64,000 nucleotides of DNA from Collinsella intestinalis DSM 13280 (GTDB lineage: Bacteria > Actinomycetota > Coriobacteriia > Coriobacteriales > Coriobacteriaceae). Within the stretch, counting starts at the first letter, position 1, and each line of letters begins with the position of its first letter. The stretch lies in NCBI RefSeq assembly GCF_000156175.1, contig NZ_GG692710.1, positions 1,189,767-1,253,766 on the forward strand. Reading direction: 5' to 3'. Positions 14,580-62,293 of this stretch are shown here, piece by piece. The notes under the pieces are model-generated. The model ran no database searches. It was given only the letters and a program-made list of their open reading frames with translations, and was not told where the DNA came from. Both the position numbers and the translations under genes were made by a program.

Positions 14580-17500
14580 CTACTTGCCGGAGCGGCGGCG
14601 CAGCACGATGCCCGCGATAACCGCGATTGCGGCAACCAGGCCGACGCCGACGACGGCCACCATGGTGTTGTCTCCCGTCTGGGGCAGACCGCCGTTGGGC
14701 TTAACCGTCGCACCGGGGCGCTCGGACTCACCGGGCTTTCCAGGCTGCTCGGGGTTCCCGGGCTGCTCGGGGTTCCCGGGCTGTTCGGGCTGCCCGGGCT
14801 TGTTGTCCTCGCCGGGATTGGGACCCGGGTTGGGAGCGGCCTCCTCGTCAAGGCGAAGCGCGGCCACGCTACGAGCAACCTCTGCCTCGAGGCCGTGGAC
14901 GGTGTTCACATCCCCGTCTGCCGCGGTGATGGCATCCTCGGCGGCTGCAATCGCCTTCGTCAGGTCCTTCCACGTTGAATCGGAGAAGGTATCGTGCTTG
15001 CAGGGGCCATCCTTCTTGATCTGCTTCGCAGAGGCGACCATGGCCTGCAGACCCTCGAAATCGCCCTTGGCGTCCGCATCGGAAAGCCCGATCTCGGCAG
15101 CGCTGCCAAAGTTGCCCTTGGCCGCGGTGATCACCAGGCGCACGATCTTCGCCTCAACACGGTCGAAGGAAATCGTCTTCACCTCGGCGTTATCGGCGAG
15201 CTTGCCCTCGGCGACCTTCTCGAAAGACGTGCCGTCCTTAGACACCTCAACCTTGTAGCCGGTCACAACGCCGTTGCCGCCATCGGGACGCGGCGTGTAC
15301 ACCAGGCCATTGACGGCCATAGGCTCACCGTTCTTGGCCTTCAGATCAAACGTATAGGGGAGCTTGGCGTTCTCGTTGCCCCACTTCGAATGCCACTTCG
15401 TGTTCACATCACCGTCGATGGCCTTCGCGGCCTCCTCGCCGCCCTGCTCGCTGTTGGCCTCGGCCTTGAGGGTCGTGCGGTCGATCAGGCTCAGGTCGCC
15501 GGCGGCCTTGAGCTCAAGGCCGTTCAGCGCGTTTACAATAGCCTGCTCGTGTCCATCGACAACCCCCTGCATCGAAGCCGGCAGGTCGCGGCGGACCCAC
15601 GTCCAAGCGGCCTTCAGCTCAGCGACGGACTGCTCGGTGAACATGTCCTCGAGCTCCTTGGAGTCGAGAAGCTGCGCATATGCGTCGATGCGGCAGTAGT
15701 CGGCCTTCGCATAATCGACCTGCTCGATCTCCCCGTTGATCTTGGCCAGCAGGGTATCGACCTCGGCCTGCGCCGGGTTGTACTGCTTAAGAAGCTCGCG
15801 GGCCTGGGAAATCAGCGCGCGCAGGTTAGCTGCGTCCATGGAGCGAGTGCCATTTCCCTGCTCGGCGAGGATGGCCTCGGCGTTGAGGATCGCGTACTCG
15901 AGATCCATAGTCTTGCTGAATTCCGTTCCCTCGGGCAGTTGGCCGCCCAGACGGACATCGTCCACGTAGCCCTCGAACGCGCGGGCGGTCGATCCGATGC
16001 GCTGAACGGGGAGCATGAGGGTGGCCTTGAGCGGCTTGCCCTCGACGGTTTCGTCATCGCCAAGCGTGTCGACGAGCGTGCCGTTCACGTACAGCGAAGC
16101 CTGCTCGAACTTATTCTTGATCTCGAGCTCGACCCACTCGTTCACGGGCAGGGTGTAGTTGAAGGAATAGGCGCGGTTCTCGCGGGTAAAGCCAACCTTA
16201 CCGGTGCCCTCCTGAACGGCCATGATCGAACCGTAATCGGATTCGAACAGGACCTGCGGATCCACGGAGGCGCTGGTGCGCTTCACCTTCACGCGAAGGT
16301 CGTTGCCCAGGCCAACGGTCGTGAGAGCGTCGTCCTTGACAGACGCGAAAGACTCGCCGCCGTTAAGCTTGAGGGCCTTTTTGCCATCGACGTCCTCGAT
16401 AGCGGCGTTCTTGCCCGCCACGAGGTCGCGGCCGAGCTCGGAGGAATCCTTCAGAGAGTCCATCGCCCAATGGGCGACAACACCGTTCTTATCGGCGGAA
16501 ACCTCGTACCCAAAGTCGACATTCGGGGAGTCGCCCAGCTTGGAGACAACAGCCTTGGCGCCAGCCGTGTCAAGCTTGCCCTTGCCCCAGGAGTTGGCAG
16601 CAAAGAGGCCGAGCGAATGGTCGATGCGGTCGTAGATGTCGTACTCGGAAACACCGTTCTCCAGATAGTCGCACATGTCGTTCCACACGGCATAGGCGCC
16701 GCCGACCATCTGCGGATCGCCCGCCGGAATAGCCACGCCGCTGATGGAGTTCAGCTGATCGGTATAGGCCGCATCGCCAAGGTAGTCGTAGTAGTAGCCG
16801 GCGTTCGGCACGATGTAGAAAACGCCGTCCTGGCAGTCGATCAGGTCGAAGCCGAGCTCGTACATCTTCTTGAGATCGGCCCAACCAGGGTTCCACAGGT
16901 TCATCTCGCGACGATGCTTGCCGTCCTCGGACACGCCCTTGACCTCGACATCGCCCTTGATGGTGCTCAACGAACCCCACACGCGGGCCTTCTTGCCGTT
17001 GTCCTCGCTGTACTTGAACATGTCGTTCACAAATTTGCGGTACGCGTTTCCATCCGCGGTGTACTCGTCGGCGCCCACGTGAATCGTGTCCGCGCCAGCA
17101 AACACGGCTGCGTCGCCGCCCTTGACGTACTCATCAAAGATGCCGCTCACGAACTTGAAGCACTCGTCGTACTGCTTGGCGATATCCAGGTGATCGTTCT
17201 GACGACCGCTCGTACCATGGCGCAGGTCCGGACGGACCTTGGTGAGAGCCAGGGAGTGGGCGGGGGTATCGATCTCGGGGATGATGTTCACGCCGAGAGC
17301 CTTGGACTCCTCGATATAGGCCTTGAAGTCCTTCTTGCTGTACCAAACGTCCTTCGCGGTCAGATCGGCCTGGTTCTTGCCGTTGTTGCCACCCTTCTTG
17401 ACGTCGGACTCGAGACGGAACGCCGAGTAGGCCTGGAAAACATCCTCGTTCTTGTAGTGCTCAAGCGGAATGAGGTTGTCGTTCAGGTGAATCTGGAAGT

Positions 17501-19277
17501 CGTTCATCTTGTAGAACGACATCTGCTTGGTCATCTGCTTCAGCCAGTCGAGGGTGAAGGTCTTGCGTCCCACGTCCAGGATGATGCCGCGCACCCTGTA
17601 GAGCGGGTAGTCGCGGGCCGTGCCGAGCGGGAAGGAGCCGGAACCGGACTTCATGCCCTGCAGGATCGTCTTGCCGCCCCAGTTGGCACCGGCAACGGCC
17701 TCGGCCGTCACGGTCATCCGATCCGCGGTTACGTCGAGCAGGTATCCCTCATCCTTGAGCCCCTTGGCCTTATCGGCGCCGAGGGTAAAGAAGATGTCGC
17801 CCTTCTGGGCAGAGGTGCCCGTGGCAACCTGAAGCCTCACGCCGGTCAGGGCCTGGTAGTCGTTGGCGAAGTCCTCCGCCATGGCCTTGAGCGAGGCATC
17901 TCCGTACACAACACGCTCCGCCGTGGAGGCGGCAAAGCTGCCGCTGCCGCCGACCCACTCGCGGAACTCGGGCAGGACAACGGGGGCCGCGTTGGCACCA
18001 GTGGCCGTCATGCTACCCGGGACCTTGACGTCAAACTCCTTGAAAGCATAGTCGGAAGGATCCGTCTTGCTGGAAATCTTGAAGGACGCCTTGACCGTGA
18101 CATCGCAGATCGGGCGGTAAATCGTGCCGTCGGCATCGATGACCTGCTCGTAGTCCGTACCGTTGTACTTGATCTCATAGCCCTCGGGAACCGCGGGCAG
18201 ATCGTAGGAGAGCATCTTGGTCTCGGGCGTCACGGGATCGACAGTGACCTCGGAAAGCCAGTCATCAAGCGTCTTCTCCAGGTCGCCTCCATACACCTCG
18301 AGCTCGTGCATCGAGATGTTATCCCACTCGACTCCCCCGTCCGGATCGAGCGCGTCCCAATCCTCAACGAGCACGCGGACATAACGTGCCTTCACGGCCT
18401 TCTCCAGAGAAACGGTCTGCGTCTTCTTCGAAGGGCGCCCCGTCTCCTTGGCCGTGGTCCACTCGCTGTCCTTGGCTGGAGCGGATTCTCCGTCCGCATA
18501 TTGGAACTTCACGCTCTTGGGCTTACGAGTCTCCCAATACACACGGAAGGTCTTCACATCACGCGTAGAACCGAAATCGAGCTGGATCCAAGCCGGGCGG
18601 GCTCCAGTCTTGGTCGCCCACCGAGATTCGCGGGCAGAAGTATCCCCATCGATCGCCTTCTCGCCCGTAAGGTTTCCGTCCTCGTTGCTAGAAGTGGCGA
18701 CTTTGGCCTTGCGCGCGATGTTGGTCTCGGGAGTCTGCTGCTCAGGCGCAGGGTTCGGAGCCTCTCCCGCGATATTCCAAACCTCGAGCTCGGCCACGGA
18801 CACGCCATACGCGCCGTTCATACGCGTAATCTCGAGCTTGATGAACTGGGCATCGACGGGAGCATCAAGCTTGAGGCGAGTGACGGCCCCTTTGCTGCCC
18901 TTCCACTCCTTGATCGGTGCGCCCCAGCTCTTCTTGTCCTTGCTCGCATACAGCTTGAAATCGGCGCCGCAGTTGGTCTCATCTTCCCAAGTGATCTCGA
19001 AAAAATTGACCTTCTCGACCTTCTGTAGGTCCACGATTGCGGAATGGGCGTCGGTCGCGGGGGCCTCGGTCATCCAACGACCGGCCTTCGTCTTGTCACC
19101 ATCGACCAGCCTTTTAGCGCTCCCTTCGTGCTCTCTTGTCACCTCAACCGATTTATTGAGGGCCAAATTGACCTCGTCGGCGTGCGCCGCCTGGGCAGGC
19201 AGGGCAATCGCAGCGGCGCACAGCAGCAATAGGCACCGAGCGGTCACCCTCTTCCAGCGCTGCATCTTCATATACAT
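14580..19277 (-). CDS. Cell-wall-anchored multidomain GH20 glycosidase (beta-N-acetylhexosaminidase / lacto-N-biosidase type)
   Basis: 1565 aa. Order of parts: signal peptide (1-33, ending PAQAAHADE); two F5/8-type C (discoidin, carbohydrate-binding) domains (about 36-172 and 184-330); a linker beta domain; GH20 N-terminal domain (about 450-555); GH20 barrel (about 559-900) with ILDVGRKTF, FQIHLNDN and HVGADEY, whose D737-E738 pair is the substrate-assisted catalytic dyad; LamG-like domain (about 935-1105); helical FIVAR-like region; third F5/8C domain (about 1262-1402); second FIVAR-like region; a Pro-Gly-rich repeat (PEQPGN units); LPQTG at 1531-1535; membrane helix and RRRSGK tail. Expected to release GlcNAc, GalNAc or lacto-N-biose from mucin or milk glycans at the cell surface. 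The initiator may be the ATG at 19271, 6 nt after GGAAGGGG. Confidence 0.93.
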   Translation of the reverse strand: MYMKMQRWKRVTARCLLLLCAAAIALPAQAAHADEVNLALNKSVEVTREHEGSAKRLVDGDKTKAGRWMTEAPATDAHSAIVDLQKVEKVNFFEITWEDETNCGADFKLYASKDKKSWGAPIKEWKGSKGAVTRLKLDAPVDAQFIKLEITRMNGAYGVSVAELEVWNIAGEAPNPAPEQQTPETNIARKAKVATSSNEDGNLTGEKAIDGDTSARESRWATKTGARPAWIQLDFGSTRDVKTFRVYWETRKPKSVKFQYADGESAPAKDSEWTTAKETGRPSKKTQTVSLEKAVKARYVRVLVEDWDALDPDGGVEWDNISMHELEVYGGDLEKTLDDWLSEVTVDPVTPETKMLSYDLPAVPEGYEIKYNGTDYEQVIDADGTIYRPICDVTVKASFKISSKTDPSDYAFKEFDVKVPGSMTATGANAAPVVLPEFREWVGGSGSFAASTAERVVYGDASLKAMAEDFANDYQALTGVRLQVATGTSAQKGDIFFTLGADKAKGLKDEGYLLDVTADRMTVTAEAVAGANWGGKTILQGMKSGSGSFPLGTARDYPLYRVRGIILDVGRKTFTLDWLKQMTKQMSFYKMNDFQIHLNDNLIPLEHYKNEDVFQAYSAFRLESDVKKGGNNGKNQADLTAKDVWYSKKDFKAYIEESKALGVNIIPEIDTPAHSLALTKVRPDLRHGTSGRQNDHLDIAKQYDECFKFVSGIFDEYVKGGDAAVFAGADTIHVGADEYTADGNAYRKFVNDMFKYSEDNGKKARVWGSLSTIKGDVEVKGVSEDGKHRREMNLWNPGWADLKKMYELGFDLIDCQDGVFYIVPNAGYYYDYLGDAAYTDQLNSISGVAIPAGDPQMVGGAYAVWNDMCDYLENGVSEYDIYDRIDHSLGLFAANSWGKGKLDTAGAKAVVSKLGDSPNVDFGYEVSADKNGVVAHWAMDSLKDSSELGRDLVAGKNAAIEDVDGKKALKLNGGESFASVKDDALTTVGLGNDLRVKVKRTSASVDPQVLFESDYGSIMAVQEGTGKVGFTRENRAYSFNYTLPVNEWVELEIKNKFEQASLYVNGTLVDTLGDDETVEGKPLKATLMLPVQRIGSTARAFEGYVDDVRLGGQLPEGTEFSKTMDLEYAILNAEAILAEQGNGTRSMDAANLRALISQARELLKQYNPAQAEVDTLLAKINGEIEQVDYAKADYCRIDAYAQLLDSKELEDMFTEQSVAELKAAWTWVRRDLPASMQGVVDGHEQAIVNALNGLELKAAGDLSLIDRTTLKAEANSEQGGEEAAKAIDGDVNTKWHSKWGNENAKLPYTFDLKAKNGEPMAVNGLVYTPRPDGGNGVVTGYKVEVSKDGTSFEKVAEGKLADNAEVKTISFDRVEAKIVRLVITAAKGNFGSAAEIGLSDADAKGDFEGLQAMVASAKQIKKDGPCKHDTFSDSTWKDLTKAIAAAEDAITAADGDVNTVHGLEAEVARSVAALRLDEEAAPNPGPNPGEDNKPGQPEQPGNPEQPGNPEQPGKPGESERPGATVKPNGGLPQTGDNTMVAVVGVGLVAAIAVIAGIVLRRRSGK

Positions 19278-48171: not shown

Positions 48172-50610
48172 CTAGTGCTTGCGACGCTTGGACGCAGCGG
48201 CCAGAGCAGCGACGCCGGAGATGCCGGCGGCTATCATCGGCAACATGGACGCATCGCCGGTCTTGGGGAGCTTGTTCGTGGGCTTGGCGGCCGGCTTGGC
48301 AGGCTCGTCCTTCACCCAACCGCCATACAGCGTGGTGTCGGCCGTGACGGCATCCTTCGCGAAGTCCCACTTCTCGGCAACAGTACCGTCAGCGTTCTTC
48401 ACCTTGAACCAACCCAGGAACTTCCAACCCTTGAGGGTGGGGGCGGCGGGCTCCTCAAGCAGAGCCCCGTCCTTGACGACAACGGCAACAGGCTTGCCGG
48501 CGCCGGATTCAAAGGTCACTGTAAACTCCTTGGGGAGCTTAGCCAGAACAGTCTCCGCCTTGGTCATCGTTTTAGTGAGCTTGGCATCAGCGAAATAGGT
48601 GTTGCACGCTGCGCAGTACCAGTGCTCGACGACGCCCTCGGTGTCAACGGTCGCAGGCTTTGCCGGGACATGGGTTGCCTTGTGGCCGAGTTTGGCAATG
48701 ACAAGCGCGTTGGGGTCGGTGACCGGAGTCTTCATACCCTCATCCAGGTACAGATCACCGCAGTCCTTGCACTTCCAGTGCGCTTTCGCACCGTCCTTGT
48801 CGCAGGTAGCGGGAACTTCAGCAACCTCGACGAGCACGTGCTTGTGCACACCGAAGCTTCCGTCGGGGTTCTTGTTCAGGCCGAAACCGGGGACGATGTA
48901 ATCCTCGTTGGGAATGGCACCCTCGTACGTACCGCCGGAGACCTGCACGTTGTTCGACGTATTCTCCTTGCTATCGGTGAAGATGGCCTGCTGGCCGCCC
49001 GTGCTGATGAACGTTCCGCCGCTTACGACCACCTTGCCGTCCTCGAAGCCCTTGGCACCCATGAGGTTAAAGACACTACCCTTGGCGCCATCCGAAGGAT
49101 CAATGGTGCCGCCAGTAATGGTCAGGTCGTTCCAGTTGAGGATGGCGGCGTTGGCGCCATTCTTCACCTCTCCACTCTTGATCACCATGACGCCATAAGA
49201 ATCGTTCTTGATGTATTTACCGCCCTCAATAACACCGCCGTCAACCGTCAACCTTGCAACATAGCCGTCTTTCTCGGGCTTGCCGCTATACCAGCCGTTG
49301 TCGACAACGCTCGAGAATCCGGCAGGTTTGCCGTCCGCGAGGAGCAGCTCGACCCTGGAGCCAGCCTTGAGCGTCAAATCCCCGCGATTCAAAACGGTGT
49401 AATAGGAGTTTCCGTTGCCCGAATTGGGCTTAAGCGTACCCGCCTCGGCAGAGCGCTTGAACGTTCCGCCAGAAAGCACGGTAACGGACCCTTCCTCGGT
49501 TACCAAAGCGGCGCGCCCATGCGACACATTATCGACCACACCACCGCTGGCAGAATCCACAACCGTGAGCTCACCCTTGTTGGTGATGGTGTGCTTGCCG
49601 GCAACGTTGGTGATCTTGTGGCCAGCGAGGTCAAGGGTGATGGTCTTGTCCGCGGGAATGACAACGGATTCGGTCACGTCGGTCAGAAGCCGAACGGTCG
49701 CGCCGTCGGCGGCGGCCAGGGCGTCTGCGAGCTTCGCAAAGGTCGCAACGTCACCACTGGGCTTAACCACGGCCGCAACGGCCTTCTCACTCGGCTTGAC
49801 GAGCGTGCCGCTCACCCACTCATGGCCACCGGGCGCAGCCAGCGCGACGGACGGGTCCTTAACGACCTTGATGGTCTCTGCGGATTCATCAATGCAAACA
49901 AGCGTGGCTTTGGAAAGGTTTCCGCCATTGATATTCAGGCCGATCGGGCCCTTGCCGGTCGCGCCACCGGAGACGCTCGTCTCGATAACGCCGACGATCT
50001 CACCCGCGCCTTTCTCGACCGTCACGACAACAGACTCGTAATCTGCGAAGCGACAAACATCGAATGCCGCCTTAGGGCCGGCCCCGCCGGCGTAAATGTT
50101 GGTACCGACGCCGATAGTCACGTTGCCATTGTTATTGGACAGCGTGTACGCGGTGTGCGGACCGCCCTTGAGCGTGACGCCTTCCAGCTTGAGATTGCTG
50201 TAGTTCTGAATAAGAATCTTTCCGCTCGCGCTTTCGGTGGTGATGACACCGTTCCGGAACGTCAAATTGCTACCCATGATCAGTTGGAATGCGTTGGTCT
50301 CGGTACCCGTCGAACCGACCGTGGGATCGGTCACCGTGTACGTGTGCCCGCCAAGGTCGAAGGTGAACTCCTGACCCCCGGCAACTTGAACGCCCGGTCC
50401 GGTCAGATCCTTCGTCAGCTTGATAGTACTGCCCTGTGGCTCCTTCTTGTCGACAATCGCCTTCACCGCTTCGGGCACCGAGGCGTACGCGCTGTCGCCA
50501 ATCATGACGTCGCCCTCAGCCGCATGCGCGGCAGGCGCAAATCCTACGGCTGCGGCGATCATCACCGCGAGAAGCGATAGGATGCGTGGGGCCTTACTCC
50601 ATTTTCTCAT
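48172..50610 (-). CDS. LPKTG-anchored beta-helix surface protein with CxxC modules and an InlB-type repeat
   Basis: 812 aa. Signal peptide (1-29, LSLLAVMIAAAVGFAPAAHA); two stretches of right-handed beta-helix-like repeats (about 50-310 and 330-610, recurring G-x-(F/I)-x-x-x-G patterns such as TVDGGVIEGGKYI, VISGGTF and VQVSGGTYEG); two CxxC modules (VPATCDKDGAKAHWKCKDCG and VDTEGVVEHWYCAACN); an InlB/Listeria-Bacteroides repeat (VTFESGAGKPVAVVVKDG...LKGWKFLGWFKV); then LPKTG (781-785), membrane helix and KRRKH tail. Likely an adhesin or carbohydrate-contacting wall protein. ATG 50610 has AAGGA upstream. The gene upstream (50853-51959) shares the CxxC module and anchor. Confidence 0.88.
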   Translation of the reverse strand: MRKWSKAPRILSLLAVMIAAAVGFAPAAHAAEGDVMIGDSAYASVPEAVKAIVDKKEPQGSTIKLTKDLTGPGVQVAGGQEFTFDLGGHTYTVTDPTVGSTGTETNAFQLIMGSNLTFRNGVITTESASGKILIQNYSNLKLEGVTLKGGPHTAYTLSNNNGNVTIGVGTNIYAGGAGPKAAFDVCRFADYESVVVTVEKGAGEIVGVIETSVSGGATGKGPIGLNINGGNLSKATLVCIDESAETIKVVKDPSVALAAPGGHEWVSGTLVKPSEKAVAAVVKPSGDVATFAKLADALAAADGATVRLLTDVTESVVIPADKTITLDLAGHKITNVAGKHTITNKGELTVVDSASGGVVDNVSHGRAALVTEEGSVTVLSGGTFKRSAEAGTLKPNSGNGNSYYTVLNRGDLTLKAGSRVELLLADGKPAGFSSVVDNGWYSGKPEKDGYVARLTVDGGVIEGGKYIKNDSYGVMVIKSGEVKNGANAAILNWNDLTITGGTIDPSDGAKGSVFNLMGAKGFEDGKVVVSGGTFISTGGQQAIFTDSKENTSNNVQVSGGTYEGAIPNEDYIVPGFGLNKNPDGSFGVHKHVLVEVAEVPATCDKDGAKAHWKCKDCGDLYLDEGMKTPVTDPNALVIAKLGHKATHVPAKPATVDTEGVVEHWYCAACNTYFADAKLTKTMTKAETVLAKLPKEFTVTFESGAGKPVAVVVKDGALLEEPAAPTLKGWKFLGWFKVKNADGTVAEKWDFAKDAVTADTTLYGGWVKDEPAKPAAKPTNKLPKTGDASMLPMIAAGISGVAALAAASKRRKH

Positions 50611-50770
50611 CGTTCGGTCCTTCCACTCGCTTGCTCGGCCTTCTGGCCGCTCAGAAACAAAATACCCCGTTGCAAACAAAGGAAATCCGACCCCTGAATG
50701 ACCTATCGCCAATCGTCGCGTTTTGTCACCTGAACGGTGTGCTACCAGGCCTTTAACTGCTTGATATAGA

Positions 50771-50804
50771 TGATGCCGAGAGCGGTACAACCACCCTCGG
50801 CATC
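50771..50804 (-). terminator. Possible terminator after the smaller surface protein gene
   Basis: GATGCCGAG / CTCGGCATC stem with a 14-nt loop, followed by a weak T-containing tract (ATCTATATC) on the minus strand. It lies in the 242-nt gap between the two surface protein genes, which otherwise holds only the downstream gene's promoter and ribosome binding site. Confidence 0.5.
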
Positions 50805-50852: not shown

Positions 50853-51959
50853 TTATTTCGACTTTCCCCGCATCTTGACCACGATGCCGGTAACGACGGC
50901 AATAGCTCCGATCACGCCCATGATCACGACCGGAATAGCGGAGTCATCACCCGTCTTCGGCAGAAGGTTCAACGGCGCAAGGACAACCTGCTGGGCAGTG
51001 GGAGACGTCGGCTGCATCGGGACGGCCGGCGCAGGCGCCTCAAGCTTCGGCAGCACCGTGTCGGCCTTCTCAATCACCTGCGCGAGGCCGGCATCGGCAA
51101 ACACAAGGCCACAGCGGTCGCACTCCCAGTACTCGGTATTTCCCTCTGCCTGGGTCGTCGGCTCCACCGCGGGCACATGCTTGACCAGGTGCCCAGGATG
51201 CAAAATCACCTGCTCATCCAACCTGATCGTGTTGCGGCCCTCGGGATCGGAGAACGACAGCCCGCAGCCGTCGCAATGCCAGTACTCGGGACGCCCGTCC
51301 ACCATGCAGGTCGCCGGCACCTCGGGCACAAAGGAAAGCGCATGCTTGTGCACGTCCATACCGCCGAGAACCTCGCCCTCGACCCTGACCCCGTCATGCG
51401 CGACGAACGTTCCTCCGTTTTGGATGACGGGGGTCGTAACGCCTTCCGCGCCTTTCACCGACCCACTCTCCATCACGACAGACGCTCCGGGTTCGATCAC
51501 GAGTGCGGGAGTGCCGGGGGTCGGAGCAAAAAGCACGGCCGAATCGGTCGCCGAACCCTCAATGGTGAGCTTGGCGCCCGACTTGACGGTAATCGCCGGC
51601 TTGCCCGCCGTACCGTTCAGCCTGTGGGCGTACAAATCGATCGACAGCTCCTTACCCGCTGGAACCGTGATCGACTCCTCGACATTGTCTATCAGTACCG
51701 CGGTCCGGCCCTTAACCTCAGGATCGGTGCCAATGGCGTCGACGGCCTCCTGCAGCGTTTTGAAATTCCAGCCCGAAACCATGATGGGTCCGAGTTCAAA
51801 ATCGGGGAAGAAATGCGTATCTTCGAGTGCCTGGGGATCAGCACCGGGCCCAGCCTGCCCGCCATCGGCATAAGCCGACGAGGGGAGCACAGACGGAGCG
51901 CACAGCGCACCGGCGAGGAGCACGAACGTTATCACCCGTGTCATTCTCGAAAACCTCAA
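50853..51959 (-). CDS. LPKTG-anchored surface protein, smaller paralog
   Basis: 368 aa. Signal peptide (about 1-32, VLLAGALCAPSVLPSSAYADG); one short beta-helix-like region (about 60-210, AITVKSGAKLTIEGSATD, PVIQNGGTFVAHDGV); two CxxC modules (VPATCMVDGRPEYWHCDGCG and TTQAEGNTEYWECDRCG) homologous to those in the next gene; then LPKTG, a membrane helix and KMRGKSK. The start is the TTG at 51959, 6 nt after GAAGGAG; ATG 51944 is less well placed. It begins 25 nt after the purB stop, so the two may be co-transcribed, a surprising pairing. Probably a sortase-A type substrate. Confidence 0.85.
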   Translation of the reverse strand: MRFSRMTRVITFVLLAGALCAPSVLPSSAYADGGQAGPGADPQALEDTHFFPDFELGPIMVSGWNFKTLQEAVDAIGTDPEVKGRTAVLIDNVEESITVPAGKELSIDLYAHRLNGTAGKPAITVKSGAKLTIEGSATDSAVLFAPTPGTPALVIEPGASVVMESGSVKGAEGVTTPVIQNGGTFVAHDGVRVEGEVLGGMDVHKHALSFVPEVPATCMVDGRPEYWHCDGCGLSFSDPEGRNTIRLDEQVILHPGHLVKHVPAVEPTTQAEGNTEYWECDRCGLVFADAGLAQVIEKADTVLPKLEAPAPAVPMQPTSPTAQQVVLAPLNLLPKTGDDSAIPVVIMGVIGAIAVVTGIVVKMRGKSK

Positions 51960-51984: not shown

Positions 51985-53328
51985 TTAGAAGCTCAGCTGC
52001 TCAAGACGATCGAACAGGACGTCGCGGCGAGTGAGGAAGTCCCACGGGTCGAAGATCTCGTCGAGCGTCTCGGGCGTCACGGTGCACTCGGGATCGGCCT
52101 CCAGGCGAGCGCGCAGATCCAGGCCATCCACGGCGGCGTGAACGTCATCCCACACGGCCATAGAGTTGCGCTGCACGATCTTGTACGCATCCTCGCGCGA
52201 AATGCCCGTATCGACCAGGGCGAGCAGCACCTTGGAGGAATAGATCAGGCCGCGCGTGAGATCGAGATTGGCCTTCATGCGAGCGGGATACAGGATGAGA
52301 CCGTCCACGATGCGGATGAGGCAGGTAAGCATGTGGTCGAGTGCCATGAAGCTGTCCGCCTGGGCAACACGCTCGGCGGAGCTGTGCGAGATGTCGCGCT
52401 CATGCCACAGCGCGACGTTATCGAACGCGACCTGGGCGTTGGCCTTCACGACGCGGGAGAGGCCACAGACCTTCTCAAGCGTAATGGGATTGCGCTTGTG
52501 CGGCATAGCCGAGCTGCCCTTCTGGCCCTTGCGGAACGGCTCCTCCACCTCGAGGGTGTCGGTCTTCTGGAGGCTGCGGATCTCGGTAGCGATACGGTCG
52601 CAAGTCGCAGCGGTAGTGGCGAGCACGCCGGCCAGGTACGCATGGTGATCGCGAGAGATAACCTGGGTGGACAGAGGGTCGTGTGCCAGACCGAGATGCT
52701 CGCAGACATACTCCTCGACGAACGGGTCGATGGAGCTGTAGGTGCCAACCGCTCCGGAGATGGCTCCAAAGGCGACGTTCTTGCGGGCGTCCACCAGGCG
52801 GTCGAGGTCACGCTTAAGCTCCCAGGCCCAGCTGCCGAACTTCATACCGAAGGTCATGGGCTCGGCGTGGATGCCGTGGGTACGGCCCACGCACAGGGTG
52901 TTGCGCTCCTCGAACGCGCGGCGGCGGCAGATCTCTCCGAGCTTGCGCACATCCTCGATGATGATGTCGGTCGCCTGGACGAGCTGGTAGCACAGGGCGG
53001 TGTCACCCAGGTCGGAGCTGGTCATGCCGTAGTGGACCCAGCGGCTGGGCTTGGGCTCGCCCTGCGGGACCTCGGCGTCGATGTGCTCGCCCATGTTGGT
53101 GAGGAAGGCGATGACGTCATGATGGGTGACTGCCTCGATAGCGTCGACCTCGGCCCTATCGAACCCGGCGTGCTCACGAATCCAGGCAGCATCCTCTTTG
53201 GTGATGCCGCACTGGCCGAGTTCGGCCTGGGCCTCACAGGCGAGCACCTCGATCTCCTGCCAAACGGCGTACTTGTTCTCGAGCGAGAAAATGTGGGCCA
53301 TCTCAGGACGGGTGTAGCGATCAATCAT
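51985..53328 (-). CDS. purB: Adenylosuccinate lyase (PurB)
   Basis: 447 aa; acts twice in purine synthesis (SAICAR to AICAR, adenylosuccinate to AMP). Fumarase/aspartase fold with MIDRYTRPEMAHIFSLENKYAVW at the start, HYGMTSSDLGDTA, VGRTHGIHAEPMTFG (catalytic His), TLEVEEPFRKGQKGSSAMPHKRNPI (flexible signature loop with the catalytic Ser) and DISHSSAER. ATG 53328 is chosen: AAGGAG lies 8 nt upstream and it matches the family start. It stands downstream of the tRNA-Gly terminator. Confidence 0.97.
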   Translation of the reverse strand: MIDRYTRPEMAHIFSLENKYAVWQEIEVLACEAQAELGQCGITKEDAAWIREHAGFDRAEVDAIEAVTHHDVIAFLTNMGEHIDAEVPQGEPKPSRWVHYGMTSSDLGDTALCYQLVQATDIIIEDVRKLGEICRRRAFEERNTLCVGRTHGIHAEPMTFGMKFGSWAWELKRDLDRLVDARKNVAFGAISGAVGTYSSIDPFVEEYVCEHLGLAHDPLSTQVISRDHHAYLAGVLATTAATCDRIATEIRSLQKTDTLEVEEPFRKGQKGSSAMPHKRNPITLEKVCGLSRVVKANAQVAFDNVALWHERDISHSSAERVAQADSFMALDHMLTCLIRIVDGLILYPARMKANLDLTRGLIYSSKVLLALVDTGISREDAYKIVQRNSMAVWDDVHAAVDGLDLRARLEADPECTVTPETLDEIFDPWDFLTRRDVLFDRLEQLSF

Positions 53329-53347
53329 GACGAGGGCTCCTTTCATG

Positions 53348-53752: not shown

Positions 53753-56700
53753 ATGATCGACAAGAGGAAGAAACCGACACGCGGGCTGATCGGAGGTGGA
53801 AACGCCAAAAAGGGACGTACGGCAACCGAAGGAGCCGCGGCGCGGCGGGCGCGCGGGCGACGACGGACTTATCCCCTGCCGGGCGCGACACTCAACGCTA
53901 GAGCTCGTACCATTCTCATATTCATCCTCATATCTGCAGCATTTTGCGCGCTCTCAGGTCTCATGGGACCCTGGTCGCGCAGCGCGTTCGCCGCAGATGG
54001 CTACACGCATACATTCCCCAACGGCAATACGGTTGAGGTGCATCCCGACGGGACGGTCACGGGCACCTGTGTGATGTCGGGCAACGCCGTTGTGGGGGGC
54101 AAATTCAGCGGAAAGGTCACCATGCCGGACGGCGCGACGTACCCCGCACTCTGTTACGAAGTGGTCATCGGGGTGCCGAATCACAGCCTGTACCCGGGTC
54201 CCTGCGACGGCTCATATCCTTTTGAGGCAAAGCGAAACCCAAACGGCACGTACTTTGTATTGATCAAAAGCCAAAACGCAGCAGCGGGTGCACCGGGCAC
54301 CGTGCCAAGCACCTATCCTTACCAGCGCTGCTGCACCAGAGAATGGAAGCTCGTACTCGATGTGAACGTCGAGTTCTCTAAGCGCTCCGAGACGCCGAGC
54401 CTGACTGACGGCAACTCGGCATACACACTGAGCGAGGCCTCCTTCGACATATACGACGCCGCGGATGAGCGCAAGGTCACCTCCATCACCATGGACGCCG
54501 GCGGCAAGGCCCGCTGCAAGCTCGCCCCTAACAAGAACTATTACGCCGTGGAAACCAAGGCGCCACAGGGCTACAAGCTGCATCAGGGCCGCATCCCGTT
54601 CCATGTGGACCCCAAGGGAATCGCGATTGTATTCGAGGACGCGCCGGGGACCGTCTCCCTCACCGTTCGCAAACAAGATGCCGCCACCGGCGGCGGAGCA
54701 CAGAGGGGCCTCTCCCTAAAGGGCGCCCAATACGAAGTGACCTCCTTGTCGACCCAGGGATGGAAAACGCATATGACAACGGATGAACGCGGCGTCGCCA
54801 CGGCGACGAACATCCCTCTGGGCCGTATCTCCGTGGTTGAGACAAAGGCACCCGAAGGCTATCGGCTCGATCCTACCGTGCATACCTACGAGGTGAACGG
54901 CGGCCAGCTTGGGACATCGGGCGTGTTCGAACTCTCACCCAAAGAAGGTTACGGCGAAGTGCCCCGGGCATTCGATATCGAGGTGGTGAAATACCTCGAA
55001 AATGGCAACGAGGGCTCCGGATTGCAAAAGCCGGGTGCCAAAGTACGCTTTGACATCATCTCAAACTCGACCGGCAAAACCGTCGGCTCCATCACGACCG
55101 ACGACCGCGGAAGAGCGTCGAGCGCGGGCAGGTGGTTCGGTGAGGGATCGCGCATCGACGGCATCAAGGGCGCCATCCCCTACGACCGAAAAGGATATAC
55201 CGTCCACGAGGACCCCGACAGCACGCCCGCGGGCTATCAACCATGCCCCGATTGGGTCATTGGGACCGACCAGATGGTAGACGGAAGCACGTTGCACTAC
55301 ATCGTCGACAATGACTTTGTCGGATCGCGGGTGCAAATCGTGAAATGCGACGCCGCCAGCGGTCAGCCCATCCCACTCGAAGGGTTCGCGTTTCAGGTGC
55401 TCGACAAGCACAAGAAACCGATATCCCAGGAGGTTTGGCATCCCAATCATGCGGTGATGGACACTTTCACCACCGACGCCACGGGATGTGTTACGTTGCC
55501 CGAGCCGCTCGAACCGGGAACCTATTACATCCGGGAAACGAAAGCCGTGAAACCCTATCTGATCAACGGGGACGAAATCGAATTCGACATTGCCGACGAC
55601 GCCGAAACGCAACCGCTGACCGTCGTGCGCATTTCAGACGAACGAGCGACGGGATCGGCGTCAATCGTTAAGCGCTGCGCCGATGACGCCTGCCCATGGT
55701 GCGAGGAGGGAAACGCAATCGAAGGCGCACGCTTTATCGTGGTAGCCATGGAAGACATCGTGAACCCGAGTGGCTCCGTCGATATGCCCAAGGGTGCGAC
55801 GGTCGAGCTCGACCCCACCGACGAAAGCGGTGTGGCCTGTATCGATGGGTTGCCGCTCGGCAGCGGGAACGCTCGATATGCGTTCGTCGAGGTCGAAGCG
55901 GCGCCGGGACACATTCTCGACCCCACCCCCATACCCTTCACCCTGAGCTGGGTCAACGCGGAAACACCCGTGGTCGACATCGAAGTGACGCATTGGAACG
56001 CCCCCACCGAAACCGTCATACACAAGACCGACGCGTCGACGGGAACGCCCCTGGCCGGAGCATCATTCGATGTCTGGCCTCGGGAACTCGAATTCAAGCA
56101 GCAGATTGAGCCCGAGCGGATGGCCGACGATGGGAATCTGGGGTCGCTGCTGATCACGAACTGCATCGGCGCTCGCGACTGGGAGAACGTCGAGATCCGG
56201 CTTGACCAAAAGGTCGACTACGCACTTGCCAGAGCATCAATCCCCGTCGGCTACTCCTTACATCTCACCCGAATTACTGACAGCGGCGAAAAGGAGGTTA
56301 GGACCCCTGAACCCGATGTGACGCGGAGCGCCGAGCGCGTAACGCTCGGCGATACGGACGATATGCTGGCACCCGGCACGTATCGAATCGAGCTGCTTGA
56401 TGCAGATGGGGCGGCCGTACACGCCGACAACGAAAAGGAACTCCGCATCGAAGCGGGCACGTCACACCTCATCGCCTACACTCCGGGCATATTCGGTATG
56501 AAGGGCAGGGTTTCCATCGAAACGAGAGATATCGAACTCGAATCATATGAGACCGACGACTTTGACCTGGATGGTGACCTGGCCATCATCAGAGACGTTA
56601 AACCGGGATCGTATCGGCTAAGCACAACATCGACCAGCGATGAGAAGCTGAGCGCAAAAACGGATGTGGAGCTTGCTTTCGGCGAACCGGCCCATGTGCA

Positions 56701-58387
56701 ATGGCGTGAGTCCCAGCTCTATCGCACGGATCACACACTCGTACCATATGCCAAGAAATATCTGGATGCGGCGTTTTCCCGTGCGAGCATATCAACGGTG
56801 ACAGACGAACATGGAGACATAGTCCTAACGCACCTTCCGATGTTGCCGCATGAACTCGACGCGCTCTTCAACCTGATTGCGCTCAAAGAGCAGCAGGATC
56901 AGCCCCGGCATATGGCTGAACCGAGCACCCGTGAGGCCGGGGAGAAACCGTTGACCTGGTGCGTTCAGGAAATGCACGCGCCCGCCGGATACGTTGCCAA
57001 CAGAGAGGTTCACACATACACAACTCAAGTCCTACCGAACGAGGAGGGGGTCGCATCCCGGCGCATCGACATTGCCAATGACTACACCAAAGTCGAGATC
57101 ACGAAGCGGGCATCTGAAACCGAGGAACCGCTTGCGGGTGCACTGCTCGAACTCACGGACGGAGAGGGCAACGTTATCGAAAGTTGGACAAGCACAACGG
57201 AGGCCCATCGTATCGAACGGCTCGAACCGGGATCCTACACGCTGACAGAACTCAGGTCTCCCCACACACATGAGCCGGCCGCGGCGCTCACGTTCAACGT
57301 GAAACCAACGACGGGCATCCAGATGGTCTCGCTCCACGACAGGCCGATTAGCGTATCGGGCAAAATCGATAAACGTCAGGAGATTGCGAAACCCGTTGCC
57401 CCGGACGCGGAAGCGGATGGAGATGGCCTCAGTCGCGCGAAGGTTCGGGAAAGCGAAGACGGTTCGTTCTCGTACGCTCTCGACTATCGAAATGACAGTT
57501 CGAGCTGGGTGGATGAGTTCACCGTTGAAGACAATCTCAATGCAGCCAAAAGCGGCATGGCTGAGCTGACGGGCATCACGACCGGGCAGGCGCATGGCGA
57601 TTACGACGGGAGGCTGAACGTTTGGTATCGCACGAACCTCGACCGAGAAGACGACGCGGAGGAAGAGAACGCCAATGCAACGCTTGCAGATGGGCACGTG
57701 AACCCTTGGCTTGGCGATGCGGCAGTTGCGAACATCGTCGGCGCAGATGGTCGAGTGAAGGACTATGGGGGCTGGAGACTGTGGAAGGAGGGGGTCTCGG
57801 CCACTGAGAGCACCTTCTTGTCCGCCTCCGACCTGCCCCTTGAATCGGGCGAGGCCATCACCGACATCCGTCTCGAGTACGGGTGTGTGAACAAGGACTT
57901 TACGTCGAGACCGAGCCAATGGGATGGCGCGGACATCAAACATCCGCATGACGATTGGAACCCCGTTCCCCCAACACATGGGAAAAAGCAGAATGCAGAC
58001 GGGGAGTCGACAGACGTATATGCGCCAACGCTGATCCATATGCGCGCGCTGCCCGCGTACACCGGCGGCAGTTCGATAGACAACCGCGCTCATGTTTCGC
58101 TCTACCGCAATGGAGGTGGTGAAGGCCTTGAAGCGCGCGACAGCGACACCGTCCATCAAGAGGCGGCAAAGGTACAGGCACATCCAATCATCAGCCTCGA
58201 TCAGACAGGAGCCGCCCCTTTGCTCAGAACTGCAGTTGGCCTCTCCATCGCAAGCATCGTCGCCGCAGGATACGCATGGCAACGAAAGCGCTGGCGAAGC
58301 GGTCGAACGGCGAGTTCTGCTGGCTTGCGTCCTAAGCGCGATTGCGGGCGCGGGACTCTCTGCAGCCGAATCACTCGCATCCGCTGA
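53753..58387 (+). CDS. Giant SpaA/Cna-B repeat surface protein with LDQTG sorting signal
   Basis: 1544 aa. A long basic N-terminus (KRKKPTRGLIGGGNAKKGR...) precedes the export helix (about 53-80, cleavage near AFAADG). An N-terminal Cys-containing domain is followed by at least six SpaA/Cna-B type modules, recognised by their closing ETKAP-like strands: VETKAPQGYKL, VETKAPEGYRL, IRETKAVKPYLI, VEVEAAPGHIL, VQEMHAPAGYVA, LTELRSP. The Glu of these motifs normally catalyses Lys-Asn isopeptide bonds. The sorting signal is LDQTG (1482-1486), then a hydrophobic helix and WQRKRWR, followed by an unusual 30-residue extension that overlaps the sortase gene. Likely a fibrillar adhesin or pilus-type protein. 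GGGAGGG stands 5 nt before ATG 53753. Confidence 0.9.
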   Translation: MIDKRKKPTRGLIGGGNAKKGRTATEGAAARRARGRRRTYPLPGATLNARARTILIFILISAAFCALSGLMGPWSRSAFAADGYTHTFPNGNTVEVHPDGTVTGTCVMSGNAVVGGKFSGKVTMPDGATYPALCYEVVIGVPNHSLYPGPCDGSYPFEAKRNPNGTYFVLIKSQNAAAGAPGTVPSTYPYQRCCTREWKLVLDVNVEFSKRSETPSLTDGNSAYTLSEASFDIYDAADERKVTSITMDAGGKARCKLAPNKNYYAVETKAPQGYKLHQGRIPFHVDPKGIAIVFEDAPGTVSLTVRKQDAATGGGAQRGLSLKGAQYEVTSLSTQGWKTHMTTDERGVATATNIPLGRISVVETKAPEGYRLDPTVHTYEVNGGQLGTSGVFELSPKEGYGEVPRAFDIEVVKYLENGNEGSGLQKPGAKVRFDIISNSTGKTVGSITTDDRGRASSAGRWFGEGSRIDGIKGAIPYDRKGYTVHEDPDSTPAGYQPCPDWVIGTDQMVDGSTLHYIVDNDFVGSRVQIVKCDAASGQPIPLEGFAFQVLDKHKKPISQEVWHPNHAVMDTFTTDATGCVTLPEPLEPGTYYIRETKAVKPYLINGDEIEFDIADDAETQPLTVVRISDERATGSASIVKRCADDACPWCEEGNAIEGARFIVVAMEDIVNPSGSVDMPKGATVELDPTDESGVACIDGLPLGSGNARYAFVEVEAAPGHILDPTPIPFTLSWVNAETPVVDIEVTHWNAPTETVIHKTDASTGTPLAGASFDVWPRELEFKQQIEPERMADDGNLGSLLITNCIGARDWENVEIRLDQKVDYALARASIPVGYSLHLTRITDSGEKEVRTPEPDVTRSAERVTLGDTDDMLAPGTYRIELLDADGAAVHADNEKELRIEAGTSHLIAYTPGIFGMKGRVSIETRDIELESYETDDFDLDGDLAIIRDVKPGSYRLSTTSTSDEKLSAKTDVELAFGEPAHVQWRESQLYRTDHTLVPYAKKYLDAAFSRASISTVTDEHGDIVLTHLPMLPHELDALFNLIALKEQQDQPRHMAEPSTREAGEKPLTWCVQEMHAPAGYVANREVHTYTTQVLPNEEGVASRRIDIANDYTKVEITKRASETEEPLAGALLELTDGEGNVIESWTSTTEAHRIERLEPGSYTLTELRSPHTHEPAAALTFNVKPTTGIQMVSLHDRPISVSGKIDKRQEIAKPVAPDAEADGDGLSRAKVRESEDGSFSYALDYRNDSSSWVDEFTVEDNLNAAKSGMAELTGITTGQAHGDYDGRLNVWYRTNLDREDDAEEENANATLADGHVNPWLGDAAVANIVGADGRVKDYGGWRLWKEGVSATESTFLSASDLPLESGEAITDIRLEYGCVNKDFTSRPSQWDGADIKHPHDDWNPVPPTHGKKQNADGESTDVYAPTLIHMRALPAYTGGSSIDNRAHVSLYRNGGGEGLEARDSDTVHQEAAKVQAHPIISLDQTGAAPLLRTAVGLSIASIVAAGYAWQRKRWRSGRTASSAGLRPKRDCGRGTLCSRITRIR

Positions 58388-59027
58388 ATGGAAGACGAGA
58401 GACCTGCGTGAAAGAATTCGGTTTCTGCCAAAGTCTAAGGAGAGAGGATGCGCCGAGCTGGATTGGAGGTCCCTTGCTCAAATCAACTCCGAAATCGTGG
58501 GTTGGATCACGGTTTCGGGAACAAGCATCGACTTGCCCGTTGCCCTGCCGTCAAAGAACAAGGCGCGCGATTGGTACCTCGATCACGACGCATGGGGGAA
58601 GCGCAGCGAACTCGGCTGCCCCTACCTTGACGTGAGATGCAAGGAACGAGGGGCGCACCTGCTCGTGTTCGGGCACAGACTTGGCCGATCGCGCCACATG
58701 TTCACCGAGCTCGCAGGAACTCATGAGCAATCCACCTTCGATGCAATCGGAAACGCAACCTGGAATAGCCGCGCGGGAAGCGAGGTATTCGAACCGGTTC
58801 TCTCGCTTGTTGTCGACAAAGACGACGCCCTCATACAACGGTTCGAATTCGATTCGCCTTCGGAGCTGCGAGACTGGTTGACCGAGTTGCTGGCCCGCTC
58901 CGCCGCGCATACAGGAAACGCGTCCGACATCGCTCTGGAAGCTCGACGGGCTCTCACTCTTGTGACATGTGCGGAGGCACGGCGCGGCGGGCGGCGACGG
59001 ACCCTTATTGTGTTTGCCACTCGATAA
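58092..59027 (+). CDS. Class B sortase
   Basis: Up to 311 aa. A membrane anchor (VLLACVLSAIAGAGLSAAESLA) followed by a class B sortase catalytic domain: INSEIVGWITVSGTSIDLPVA, WYLDHDAWGKRSELGCPYLD, the catalytic His in LLVFGHRLG, catalytic Cys in TLVTCAEA and Arg in RRRTLIVFATR. The first 295 nt overlap the end of the adhesin gene in another frame. No start codon has a good ribosome binding site: ATG 58092, ATG 58110 and a TTG near 58236 are candidates, and the domain needs only about residues 75 onward. Position suggests it anchors or polymerises the LDQTG protein upstream. Confidence 0.88.
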   Translation: MFRSTAMEVVKALKRATATPSIKRRQRYRHIQSSASIRQEPPLCSELQLASPSQASSPQDTHGNESAGEAVERRVLLACVLSAIAGAGLSAAESLASAEWKTRDLRERIRFLPKSKERGCAELDWRSLAQINSEIVGWITVSGTSIDLPVALPSKNKARDWYLDHDAWGKRSELGCPYLDVRCKERGAHLLVFGHRLGRSRHMFTELAGTHEQSTFDAIGNATWNSRAGSEVFEPVLSLVVDKDDALIQRFEFDSPSELRDWLTELLARSAAHTGNASDIALEARRALTLVTCAEARRGGRRRTLIVFATR

Positions 59028-59329: not shown

Positions 59330-62293
59330 TTACGAACGACGGATGACTTCGGTCACCACGTCAGACACGACGGCGACGTTCTCAAGGTCGACGTTATAGG
59401 GCTGATCCTCCTCGGTGCGAGCAAGGGCGAAGCCGGTACCCTCCACACCGCCGATGGTCAGCGAGCGGAGACTCATGTTCATTGCAACCTGAGCATCGGT
59501 GGTGACATACGGCATATCAACCGTGGGGTACTCGTGATGGAAATCGGAGCTCACACGCTGGACGAGCTTAGTGATGCGCTTATCTCCCTTGAGAACTCGC
59601 TCCTCGCCCTCGGTGGAGAGCATCGCGACCTGACCGGCACCGACGCTCTCGAGGTTGATGAGGAACACGCCGCGAAGCTTATCGCGATGGGCATCAAGGA
59701 AGGCCTGCATACCAGCGTTCCCGTTTTCGGAAGCGCCGGTCGCGACGAACCAGATGTCGTGACCGAGCAGCTCGTCGTCGCCCATGTCCGCAATGGCCTC
59801 GCGCAGCTCCTCCTCAGACGCATCGCCGAACGGGGCGGCACCGCCCTTCCAGTCATCGTCGTCAAAGTTGTCCCAAGAGCCGATATCGTGACCGCTACGC
59901 TTGGCGTCGAAGGAATCGTCAACGCCGAGCCAGTCACTCATGCTGTCCTCGTCCTTCTTTTTGCGACCGAAAAGACGGGACAGACCTCGACGCGGCTTCT
60001 CAGGCTCGGGTGCCGGAGCGCTGATGGTCTCGAATGCACCCTCGGGAGCGTAGCCTTGCTCAAACGGAGCGGGGGAGCTGATGACCGTGAAAGCGCTGCG
60101 GGCCTCAGCGGCCTGCTCGTCGAGAACGGGGGCCGTCACAGAAGGAGCGGCGGGAGCGGGCGCGGCCATGGGAGCGGCGAAAGGATCCACCGGGGTCGCC
60201 GACGGATCGGGAAGATCGAACAGGGATGCACGATTGGCGGTCTCGGGCGTGCGGGGCTTGGGCGCCGATGCGGTGCTGGGGACGTTGATCACACGCTGGG
60301 GACGGGCGGGAACGGCACGGCTGACCTCGGCCATAAGCGAGTCGACCGTTTCGACCAGCTGCGCGGGCATGGCCACGGTACCGGAAAGATCGACCGAGCT
60401 TTCCTCCGCGGGCATGGTGAACATCTGCGTCGCACCGTCGGCGGAAGCCTCCTCGACCGATCCGTTCGGGGAGGGGGCGACAAAGGTGTCTTCGATTGCA
60501 GGAACGTCGTCATCGGAAGCGGAAGCGACATCGGGATTAGTAACATCCTCCATGTCGGCACCGGAGTCGAAGGAGTCATTCTGGGAGCCATCGTCCCCAG
60601 TCTCAGGCTGCTCGACCTCGGACTGGTCAACCTCAGCCTCAGGTTCGGACTCAGCCGCCGCATTCTCCGCGAGGGGCTCCTCCTCGATGACCTCATACTC
60701 GGCCTCGAGGATATAGTCATCCTCCTCGACGGGCGCGAACGCCTCGGCGAAAGCAGCATCGTCCTCAACCTCATCGGCGGACTCGAGAACGTCTTCCTCG
60801 ACAAACACCTCCTCGGCGTCATCGATGCGCTCTTCCGCGACTTCCTCGATTGCAACGGGCGCGGATTCTTCAGCCTCGATGGACTCGTGCTCGGCGAATT
60901 CAGGAGCCGGGACCACGACGGAGGCAGCCGGGGCGTCGCTCTCATACACGAAGGAGCAGGACTCGGGCATCATTCCCAGGGCGCGAATGACATCGGCACC
61001 GAAACGGATGTTGCCCTCGGAGTTCACGCGGAACGGCGGCTCATCCTCAGCAGCGACGTCCAAGTCGAGCTCGACCTGGCCCATCTCATCTTCGGGAAGC
61101 TCATTTGCCACGACCTGCGCGGCGGCGGGCTCGTCGACACGAGCCTCCTCGGCGCTTTCGGCATTCACAACGGCGGTGTGATCGGATTCGACGATCTCGA
61201 AGACCGCCGTCCCCTGCTCGACGGGTTCCTCCTCGACGACAACCCCCTCGACATCCGCATCTTCGTCGGCGGGATCGGCCTCGGTCAGGTTGACAGCCGT
61301 CATCCCGGCCTCGAGCTCGGCGGCGCTCATTGTGGACGTAGAGCCGAAATCGACCGCCTCAGCTGTGTCCTCACCTTCGGACTGCTCGGGCTGCTCGCCC
61401 TCCACGCCTTCGACGGCCAGCTCATCCTCTGCGCCCTCCTCCATCTCATGCGGATAGGAGGCCTGGGCGGCAGCAGCGGCCTCTGCAGCGGCGATGGCCT
61501 CCTCGAGGATGCGCTGCTGCTCGGCAAAGTACTCGTCGGCCGGCTGATCGGAAGGGAACTCCTCGCCCATCTCGTACGGGGCAACGGCGTCCATGACGCC
61601 GAGCATGGCCGCGACGGAGGACTTGTTGCACACGGCGCCCGTGGTGTAGGGCAGGAAGAAGCGATTGGCGATGATGGCGATGCCGTTCGCAAGCGGAATC
61701 AGGGCCGCCACGATGGCGAGCACCCATAGGACGACCTTTGCCGGATCGGGCAGCGGAAGCATGCGCACGACGGCAAAGATAGCGGGGGCGACCATGCAAG
61801 CGGGAAGGAGCTTCACGATGAGCGGACGGTACGCGGCGAAGGGCTCGGAGCTCAGCAGATCGGCACGCGGAGAGTCGTAGTGCGCCACAACGACCACCGG
61901 ACGGTTGCGGGGAGATGCGAGCGGACCCGTGGCCTTGTGGTAGGCGATGACGTTCTGGCTCAGACCGCCGGAACCGAGGTTGGAAAGAACAGGACGACCG
62001 GAGCGCTCGAGGACAAAGAGGACCGCAGCGGCGACAGCGAGCAGCAGGCCCACAATGCCGGCAGGCCCGCCGATGCCGGCGAGCACGGCGCCGACGAACA
62101 CCGCGATGCCGAGGCCGGCCTGGACGACCTTCGCCGAACCGCTCGCGCTGAACTCCTGCACCTCGGGCGCGAAGCCATGGTCGGAAAAGATCTTCGCGAT
62201 CGCATCCGCGGCGGCGCGCTCTTCCTCGCTGCAAGCAGGGGTGATACCGGTGTTCTGAAGCAGATGGCTCAGGTATTTCTTCGTATTCGCCAT
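59330..62293 (-). CDS. M28-peptidase-like membrane protein with a very long acidic insertion
   Basis: 987 aa. The first 240 and last 160 residues read as one M28-like (Zn aminopeptidase) fold: ACSEEERAAADAIAKIFSDHGF, PVVVVAHYDSPRAD (H138, D140), NKSSVAAMLGVMDAV, then HDIWFVATGASENGNAGMQAFLDAH, VFLINLESVGAG. Four membrane segments (about 60-92 and 160-210) interrupt the N-terminal part. Between about 245 and 820 lies a Glu/Asp/Ala/Val-rich, probably disordered region (EEEPVEQ, ESADEVEDDAAFAEAF and similar). Several metal and catalytic residues are replaced (Cys for the bridging Asp; Ser-Glu for Glu-Glu), so peptidase activity is doubtful. ATG 62293 has GGAG 5 nt upstream. Confidence 0.72.
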   Translation of the reverse strand: MANTKKYLSHLLQNTGITPACSEEERAAADAIAKIFSDHGFAPEVQEFSASGSAKVVQAGLGIAVFVGAVLAGIGGPAGIVGLLLAVAAAVLFVLERSGRPVLSNLGSGGLSQNVIAYHKATGPLASPRNRPVVVVAHYDSPRADLLSSEPFAAYRPLIVKLLPACMVAPAIFAVVRMLPLPDPAKVVLWVLAIVAALIPLANGIAIIANRFFLPYTTGAVCNKSSVAAMLGVMDAVAPYEMGEEFPSDQPADEYFAEQQRILEEAIAAAEAAAAAQASYPHEMEEGAEDELAVEGVEGEQPEQSEGEDTAEAVDFGSTSTMSAAELEAGMTAVNLTEADPADEDADVEGVVVEEEPVEQGTAVFEIVESDHTAVVNAESAEEARVDEPAAAQVVANELPEDEMGQVELDLDVAAEDEPPFRVNSEGNIRFGADVIRALGMMPESCSFVYESDAPAASVVVPAPEFAEHESIEAEESAPVAIEEVAEERIDDAEEVFVEEDVLESADEVEDDAAFAEAFAPVEEDDYILEAEYEVIEEEPLAENAAAESEPEAEVDQSEVEQPETGDDGSQNDSFDSGADMEDVTNPDVASASDDDVPAIEDTFVAPSPNGSVEEASADGATQMFTMPAEESSVDLSGTVAMPAQLVETVDSLMAEVSRAVPARPQRVINVPSTASAPKPRTPETANRASLFDLPDPSATPVDPFAAPMAAPAPAAPSVTAPVLDEQAAEARSAFTVISSPAPFEQGYAPEGAFETISAPAPEPEKPRRGLSRLFGRKKKDEDSMSDWLGVDDSFDAKRSGHDIGSWDNFDDDDWKGGAAPFGDASEEELREAIADMGDDELLGHDIWFVATGASENGNAGMQAFLDAHRDKLRGVFLINLESVGAGQVAMLSTEGEERVLKGDKRITKLVQRVSSDFHHEYPTVDMPYVTTDAQVAMNMSLRSLTIGGVEGTGFALARTEEDQPYNVDLENVAVVSDVVTEVIRRS

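Follow-up and report, generated by a model that had tools for sequence, protein, structure and literature searches.

A SrtB-like sortase gene adjoining an adhesin with an L-x-Q-T-G sorting signal in Collinsella intestinalis and other Coriobacteriaceae

Loci made up of one adhesin and one class B sortase (AbpA–SrtB), class B sorting signals that lack Pro at position 2 (Spy0129) and the LAXTG signals of SrtE have already been published. Pro at position 2 is treated as almost universal among the signals that sortases read (about 90%; PMC5148588). In the AbpA–SrtB system of oral streptococci, a single adhesin gene immediately precedes a single class B sortase gene and the two are kept as a pair, an arrangement shared by the Collinsella locus described here, as is the unusual signal; the housekeeping sortase is not needed in the AbpA system (PMC4974636). 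The AbpA signal, LPKTS-AVK, stands at the very end of the protein without helix or tail and requires both L and P, whereas the Collinsella adhesin has a full signal with a helix and position 2 is free in the Coriobacteriaceae pair. Spy0129 of group A streptococci likewise belongs to the class B family, acts on locus-specific substrates and has non-Pro residues at position 2 (EVPTG/QVPTG; PMC3019223); its motif, however, has Pro at position 3, where the Coriobacteriaceae adhesins have Gln, and it polymerises pilins.

The class E enzyme SrtE1 (LAXTG) is, like the sortase studied here, actinobacterial and linked to non-Pro position 2 residues, A and P both being tolerated (PMC5148588), but the Collinsella sortase matches SrtB profiles, and the adhesins of the paired loci most commonly have D at position 2 and a conserved Gln at position 3. 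The SrtB–IsdC systems of Staphylococcus aureus and Bacillus anthracis (NPQTN, NPKTG; PMC11987632) share the SrtB family, the Gln at position 3 of NPQTN and the pairing of one substrate with one sortase, but differ in that the Collinsella locus carries no recognised haem-uptake genes, has Leu rather than Asn at position 1 and has no Asp at P2′. Finally, SpaH/EbpB-type LPXTG major pilins (NF033902) also contain SpaA repeats, but the adhesin scored 80 bits against a cut-off of 95 and is longer, multi-repeat and fibrillar. In the literature covered, which leaves most subscription papers outside, no paper describing LDxTG, LxQTG or Collinsella sortases was found; a search of the same scope returned no description of a family-wide SrtB-like clade with a free position 2 and a conserved Gln alongside a parallel, Asp-marked housekeeping code.

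The adhesin, its sorting signal and the adjoining sortase

The window analysed is a stretch of 64,000 nucleotides from Collinsella intestinalis DSM 13280 (GCF_000156175.1, contig NZ_GG692710.1, positions 1,189,767–1,253,766, forward strand), whose genome of 1.81 Mb is G000 in the comparison set. An open reading frame for a giant SpaA-repeat adhesin of 1544 amino acids, starting with ATG, was called at 53753..58387 (+). It encodes a signal peptide, a variable N-terminal head, a stalk with five SpaA stretches (Pfam, E 9.9e-66), a conserved C-terminal domain and a sorting signal. The C-terminal domain (...EYG-V...RNGGG-LE-D-D; 57776..58160, +; alignment A1) lies directly before the sorting signal and gave a profile match in 60 of 67 family genomes. 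The adhesin C-terminus reads ...HPIISLDQTGAAPLLRTAVGLSIASIVAAGYAWQRKRWRSGRTASSAGLRPKRDCGRGTLCSRITRIR, within which HPIIS-LDQTG-AAPLLRTAVGLSIASIVAAGYAW-QRKRWR is followed by a further tail. All parts of a sortase substrate signal are present on the plus strand, namely the pentapeptide LDQTG (58196..58210; L-[DAPFE]-Q-T-G at the homologous position in 33 loci), a hydrophobic helix (about 58211..58279) and a basic cluster, QRKRWR, with a long tail, 35 residues in all (58280..58384). The end is thus LDQTG instead of LPxTG, as a preliminary description of this DNA had read it, and the TIGR01167 sorting-signal model did not recognise the adhesin even at E 10.

Adhesin heads vary among loci (window positions 53753–54400 compared with L041, L040 and others). 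Many have a CAQG segment, to which the heads of the window adhesin and of that in the nearest relative, G032, are unrelated, and the one head tested, that of L041, gave a weak thioester-domain match below the cut-off (E 0.0085). The pattern looks like head swapping on a common adhesin stalk. On the left, the adhesin gene is flanked by a gene at 51985..53346 (−), which we take by eye to be purB (adenylosuccinate lyase); a flank motif check found purB as left neighbour in many related loci, with or without the sortase. The convergent right neighbour (59330..62293, −), presumably an M28-type aminopeptidase-like gene as judged by eye, is kept in most loci according to a C-terminal motif check of the flanks. 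Elsewhere in the window, the open reading frame at 8921–10162 resembles, by eye, an IS3-type transposase.

The sortase open reading frame (58092..59027, +; 311 amino acids from an ATG by a mechanical rule) overlaps the 3′ end of the adhesin frame (53753–58387). The part that shows coding constraint in the sortase frame (58306..59027, +) comprises an N-terminal membrane helix followed by the catalytic domain. Numbered from a translation starting at 58380, the catalytic residues are His-99 (58674..58676, +), Cys-197 in TLVTC (58968..58970, +) and Arg-207 (58998..59000, +); all three are intact, and they are invariant across 36 aligned sortases (alignment A2). Their spacing, with a long beta6/beta7 region and 10 residues from Cys to Arg, is like that of known SrtB enzymes. 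The class B NCBIfam model TIGR03064 was the best-matching model (E 1.5e-21, 76.8 bits), but because this score is below the cut-off of 153.75, the enzyme is called SrtB-like and not a proven member of class B. A profile of the 36 sortases matched structures of 15 distinct sequences, the best being 6kyc (E 2.4e-24), and these were named SrtB or SrtB-like save for a few uncharacterised entries. An AlphaFold2 model built on two sequences only (window and L033) had a pLDDT of 33 and was discarded.

The AbpA-specific SrtB model NF040525 gave 31.3 bits for the window sortase against a cut-off of 200, and the adhesin C-terminus is also unlike LPKTxSAVK. Class E membership was not found, only class B NCBIfam models matching the window sortase and position 2 being D in the window and mixed in relatives instead of Ala, nor was an Isd/NEAT haem-uptake system found at the locus, where the flanks are purB and the M28-like peptidase and the motif is L-x-Q-T-G, not NPxTx. 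Between the two nearest sortases, those of the window and G032, dN was 0.18 and dS 1.49 (dN/dS 0.12), a pairwise value that spans both lineages and that a recent loss would escape; on these substitutions, the catalytic part is under purifying selection.

Conservation of the pair across the family

For comparison, 33 adhesin–sortase loci were assembled from 32 Coriobacteriaceae genomes. A search of 67 family genomes found relatives of the sortase, at 35–66% identity, in roughly half of them, and the clade reaches through the order Coriobacteriales; the pair is old. Since the pairing recurs across the family, the catalytic His, Cys and Arg are invariant and dN is far below dS (0.18 vs 1.49), the pair is not a chance association.

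Among the 33 paired adhesins, position 1 of the motif is L in 32, position 2 is D in 13, A in 9, P in 8, F in 2 and E in 1, position 3 is Q in 30, position 4 is T in all and position 5 is G in 29. The signal is accordingly written L-x-Q-T-G, position 2 being varied and Gln 3 and Thr nearly fixed. Five loci have an adhesin C-terminal domain of another type, yet retain an L-x-[QR]-T-G end. When outgroup families were included, at least 15 changes of position 2 were counted on the sortase tree, and with such a mixture of residues Asp must be seen as one of several and not as the code. The preliminary description had proposed both a class B sortase dedicated to a single adhesin and Asp at position 2 as the mark of the pair. 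The former, with a class-B-like enzyme, is supported by the 33 loci; the latter is contradicted by homologous adhesins that carry D, A, P, F or E beside the same sortase, with Gln 3 nearly fixed.

Outside the family, the same sortase clade adjoins LDQTG, LAQTG, MAQTG, LPQTG, MPQTG and FPNTG proteins, and in two genomes of the set (G060 and G005) the sortase is present without an intact adjoining adhesin. Sortases whose adhesin has D or E at position 2 carry a basic residue behind the catalytic His in 16 of 16 cases, against 9 of 16 for those with P; among 1631 tests for sortase columns that track position 2, none survives correction or the tree. Further wall proteins end in YAKTG, YDKTG, YPHTG or LEQTGN (L199:2788–5529 in G006; L071 in G016; L165; L200:519–4463 in G008), some of them adjoining other accessory sortases. 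In these, position 2 is again free and the first or third residue is often different, as if several accessory sorting codes coexisted.

Housekeeping-type wall proteins and readings of the pair

The window genome has two sortases only, both SrtB-type; a PF04203 search at E 10 revealed none of another class. The second, of 346 amino acids, lies beside purE (C3:1331.4k of the genome), scores 135.2 bits with TIGR03064, also below the cut-off of 153.75, has counterparts across the family and is taken as the housekeeping enzyme. Three other wall proteins of the window, all on the minus strand, are of the housekeeping type, one ending LPQTGD (14580..19277) and two ending LPKTGD (48172..50790 and 50853..51959), in line with the LPQTG and LPKTG ends reported for them earlier. 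The two LPKTGD genes stand in tandem just past purB (48172–51959), so that purB has three wall-protein genes grouped around it.

In the same genome, ten other wall proteins, listed with TIGR01167, a model biased to LP, all end LP[QKSA]TG-D. Because of this bias, a motif-unbiased control set was selected through an unrelated domain, consisting of proteins that share this domain with the window LPQTGD protein. In the 14 ends read, position 2 was P in 11 and V in 3, position 3 was free and Asp followed the motif in every case, giving [LI][PV]xTG-D as the rule of the family's other wall proteins. When the 24 proteins (10 own-genome and 14 control) were set against the 33 paired adhesins, Asp right after the motif was found in 24/24 vs 1/33 (Fisher p 3e-15), P at position 2 in 21/24 vs 8/33 (p 3e-6) and Q at position 3 in 11/24 vs 30/33 (p 3e-4), values that are indicative only, since the sequences are related and their independence is overstated. 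B. anthracis SrtB requires Asp at the equivalent P2′ position (PMC11987632), so that Asp makes sense as the hallmark of a housekeeping code of SrtB type. The comparison of L-x-Q-T-G with [LI][PV]xTG-D supports the two sorting routes that had been proposed for the window.

The reading we consider probable is that of a dedicated pair, in which the SrtB-like sortase anchors the neighbouring adhesin via L-x-Q-T-G and the purE-linked SrtB-type enzyme serves the [LI][PV]xTG-D proteins. Once secreted, the adhesin would stay in the membrane through its C-terminal helix; the SrtB-like sortase would cut L-x-Q-T-G between Thr and Gly by way of an acyl-enzyme on its active-site Cys (58968–58970), and the cut adhesin would then be attached to the wall. 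We infer that the linked sortase cleaves, selects and anchors in this way; it would read Leu 1, Gln 3 and Thr 4 and accept any of D, A, F, E and P as the second residue. Given the 8 of 33 paired adhesins with P at this position, it may well cut LPQTG too. More tentatively, and at slightly short of an even chance, a SrtB-derived clade of the Coriobacteriales may have dropped the position 2 Pro, which almost all known sortases read, and recognise L-x-Q-T via Gln, beside a SrtB-type housekeeping enzyme that reads Pro or Val plus Asp after the motif, so that one cell would hold two orthogonal codes, both of SrtB type.

It is unlikely, though worth weighing, that the linked sortase is instead a pilus-type polymerase that joins adhesin molecules to one another or to extra subunits, the product being anchored by the housekeeping sortase, as with Spy0129. 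Class B polymerases of pilins are known whose signals have a residue other than Pro at position 2 (EVPTG/QVPTG; PMC3019223), AbpA–SrtB produces ladders (PMC4974636) and the adhesin has a SpaA-fold stalk and weak pilin-family matches. In four relatives (L034, L035, L040 and L049), three more genes also lie between those for the adhesin and the sortase, possibly coding for accessory subunits; in L040 (5828–8773) they encode a small protein anchored in the membrane, a 198-aa protein that looks secreted and has no Pfam match, and a 495-aa InlB-repeat protein that lacks a sorting signal. Most loci, however, consist of one adhesin and one sortase, and no second sorting-signal protein was found there. 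No conserved acceptor lysine was identified in the adhesin, which at mostly 1300–1900 amino acids is far above usual shaft pilins and whose signal lacks the Asp of housekeeping substrates.

Nineteen genomes that were read keep the adhesin without a sortase beside it, at the same locus and with the peptidase directly downstream. Their signals are LPATGS (16), LPNTGN (1), MPKTGD (1) and LAQTSD (1), the last in G033, which retains LAQT; each has moved toward the housekeeping form, having gained Pro as its second residue, Asp behind the motif, or the two together. Among the 19, an unlinked sortase of the same clade persists in G005, and three genomes (G008, G017 and G026) encode a more distant accessory sortase at another site. 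Presumably, the sortase-less adhesins are left to the housekeeping enzyme. As the sortase was lost in about two events on the adhesin tree, one of them G033 with its retained LAQT, there were too few to compare loss and signal change by independent pairs, and the change counts as a strong hint, short of a test. LPxTG homologues with unrelated sortases had been named beforehand as evidence against the pair; LPATG and LPNTG homologues do exist, but only where the sortase is missing from the locus.

The G033 signal, together with V at position 2 in 3 of the 24 housekeeping substrates, would also suit a second alternative, in which true specificity is lacking, the adhesin is anchored by the housekeeping sortase, position 2 drifts because a weak match suffices and the linked sortase does something else. 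We regard this as improbable, since Gln 3 is kept in 30/33 and Asp after the motif is absent in 32/33, the reverse of the housekeeping set, while adjacency is conserved and the linked sortase is under purifying selection.

The gene junction and what the pair would mean

The overlap was examined by the per-frame substitution pattern in a gapless DNA alignment of the window with G032. Substitutions fall mostly at third positions of the adhesin frame to ~58275 and of the sortase frame from ~58306, so that constraint changes frame near 58276–58306. A sortase start at 58092 is unsupported because constraint stays in the adhesin frame to ~58275; by this codon-phase test, the shared coding stretch is about 80–110 nt, and the overlap drawn from 58092 is too long. 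A frameshift or assembly error at the junction was ruled out by the gap-free alignment of both genomes over 57900–59027. The adhesin tail beyond QRKRWR is read from sortase-coding DNA, and in its long form is a lineage-specific by-product. In many relatives the tail is short, and the sortase gene either follows after a gap or overlaps by 4 nt, which is ordinary translational coupling. A 30-residue tail coded by shared bases had been described; the shared origin stands, but the length is 35, and with many relatives short-tailed it is not a feature of the sorting signal.

The G032 sortase begins with ATG at the frame-switch point, where the window has GCG, and window positions 58236–58305 hold no ATG, GTG or TTG at the place of this start; an out-of-frame ATG occurs at 58276. 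This difference, with the nearest in-frame alternatives (TTG 58236, ATG 58110 and ATG 58092) all inside adhesin-coding DNA, could mean that the start codon has decayed, that the sortase is no longer properly translated and that the pair is defunct in this genome while working in relatives, but we hold this to be the least probable alternative, the catalytic domain being whole and dN/dS against G032 being 0.12.

If the sortase does ignore position 2 and read Gln at position 3, it would be a useful orthogonal ligation enzyme, and the sortase-less genomes are a natural experiment on a signal passing from one sortase to another. Because TIGR01167 misses the LDQTG adhesin altogether, the wall proteins of the Coriobacteriaceae, a common gut family, are probably under-counted. 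An L-x-Q-T-G tag with a dedicated enzyme would be a modest, testable addition to bacterial wall anchoring beyond LPxTG.
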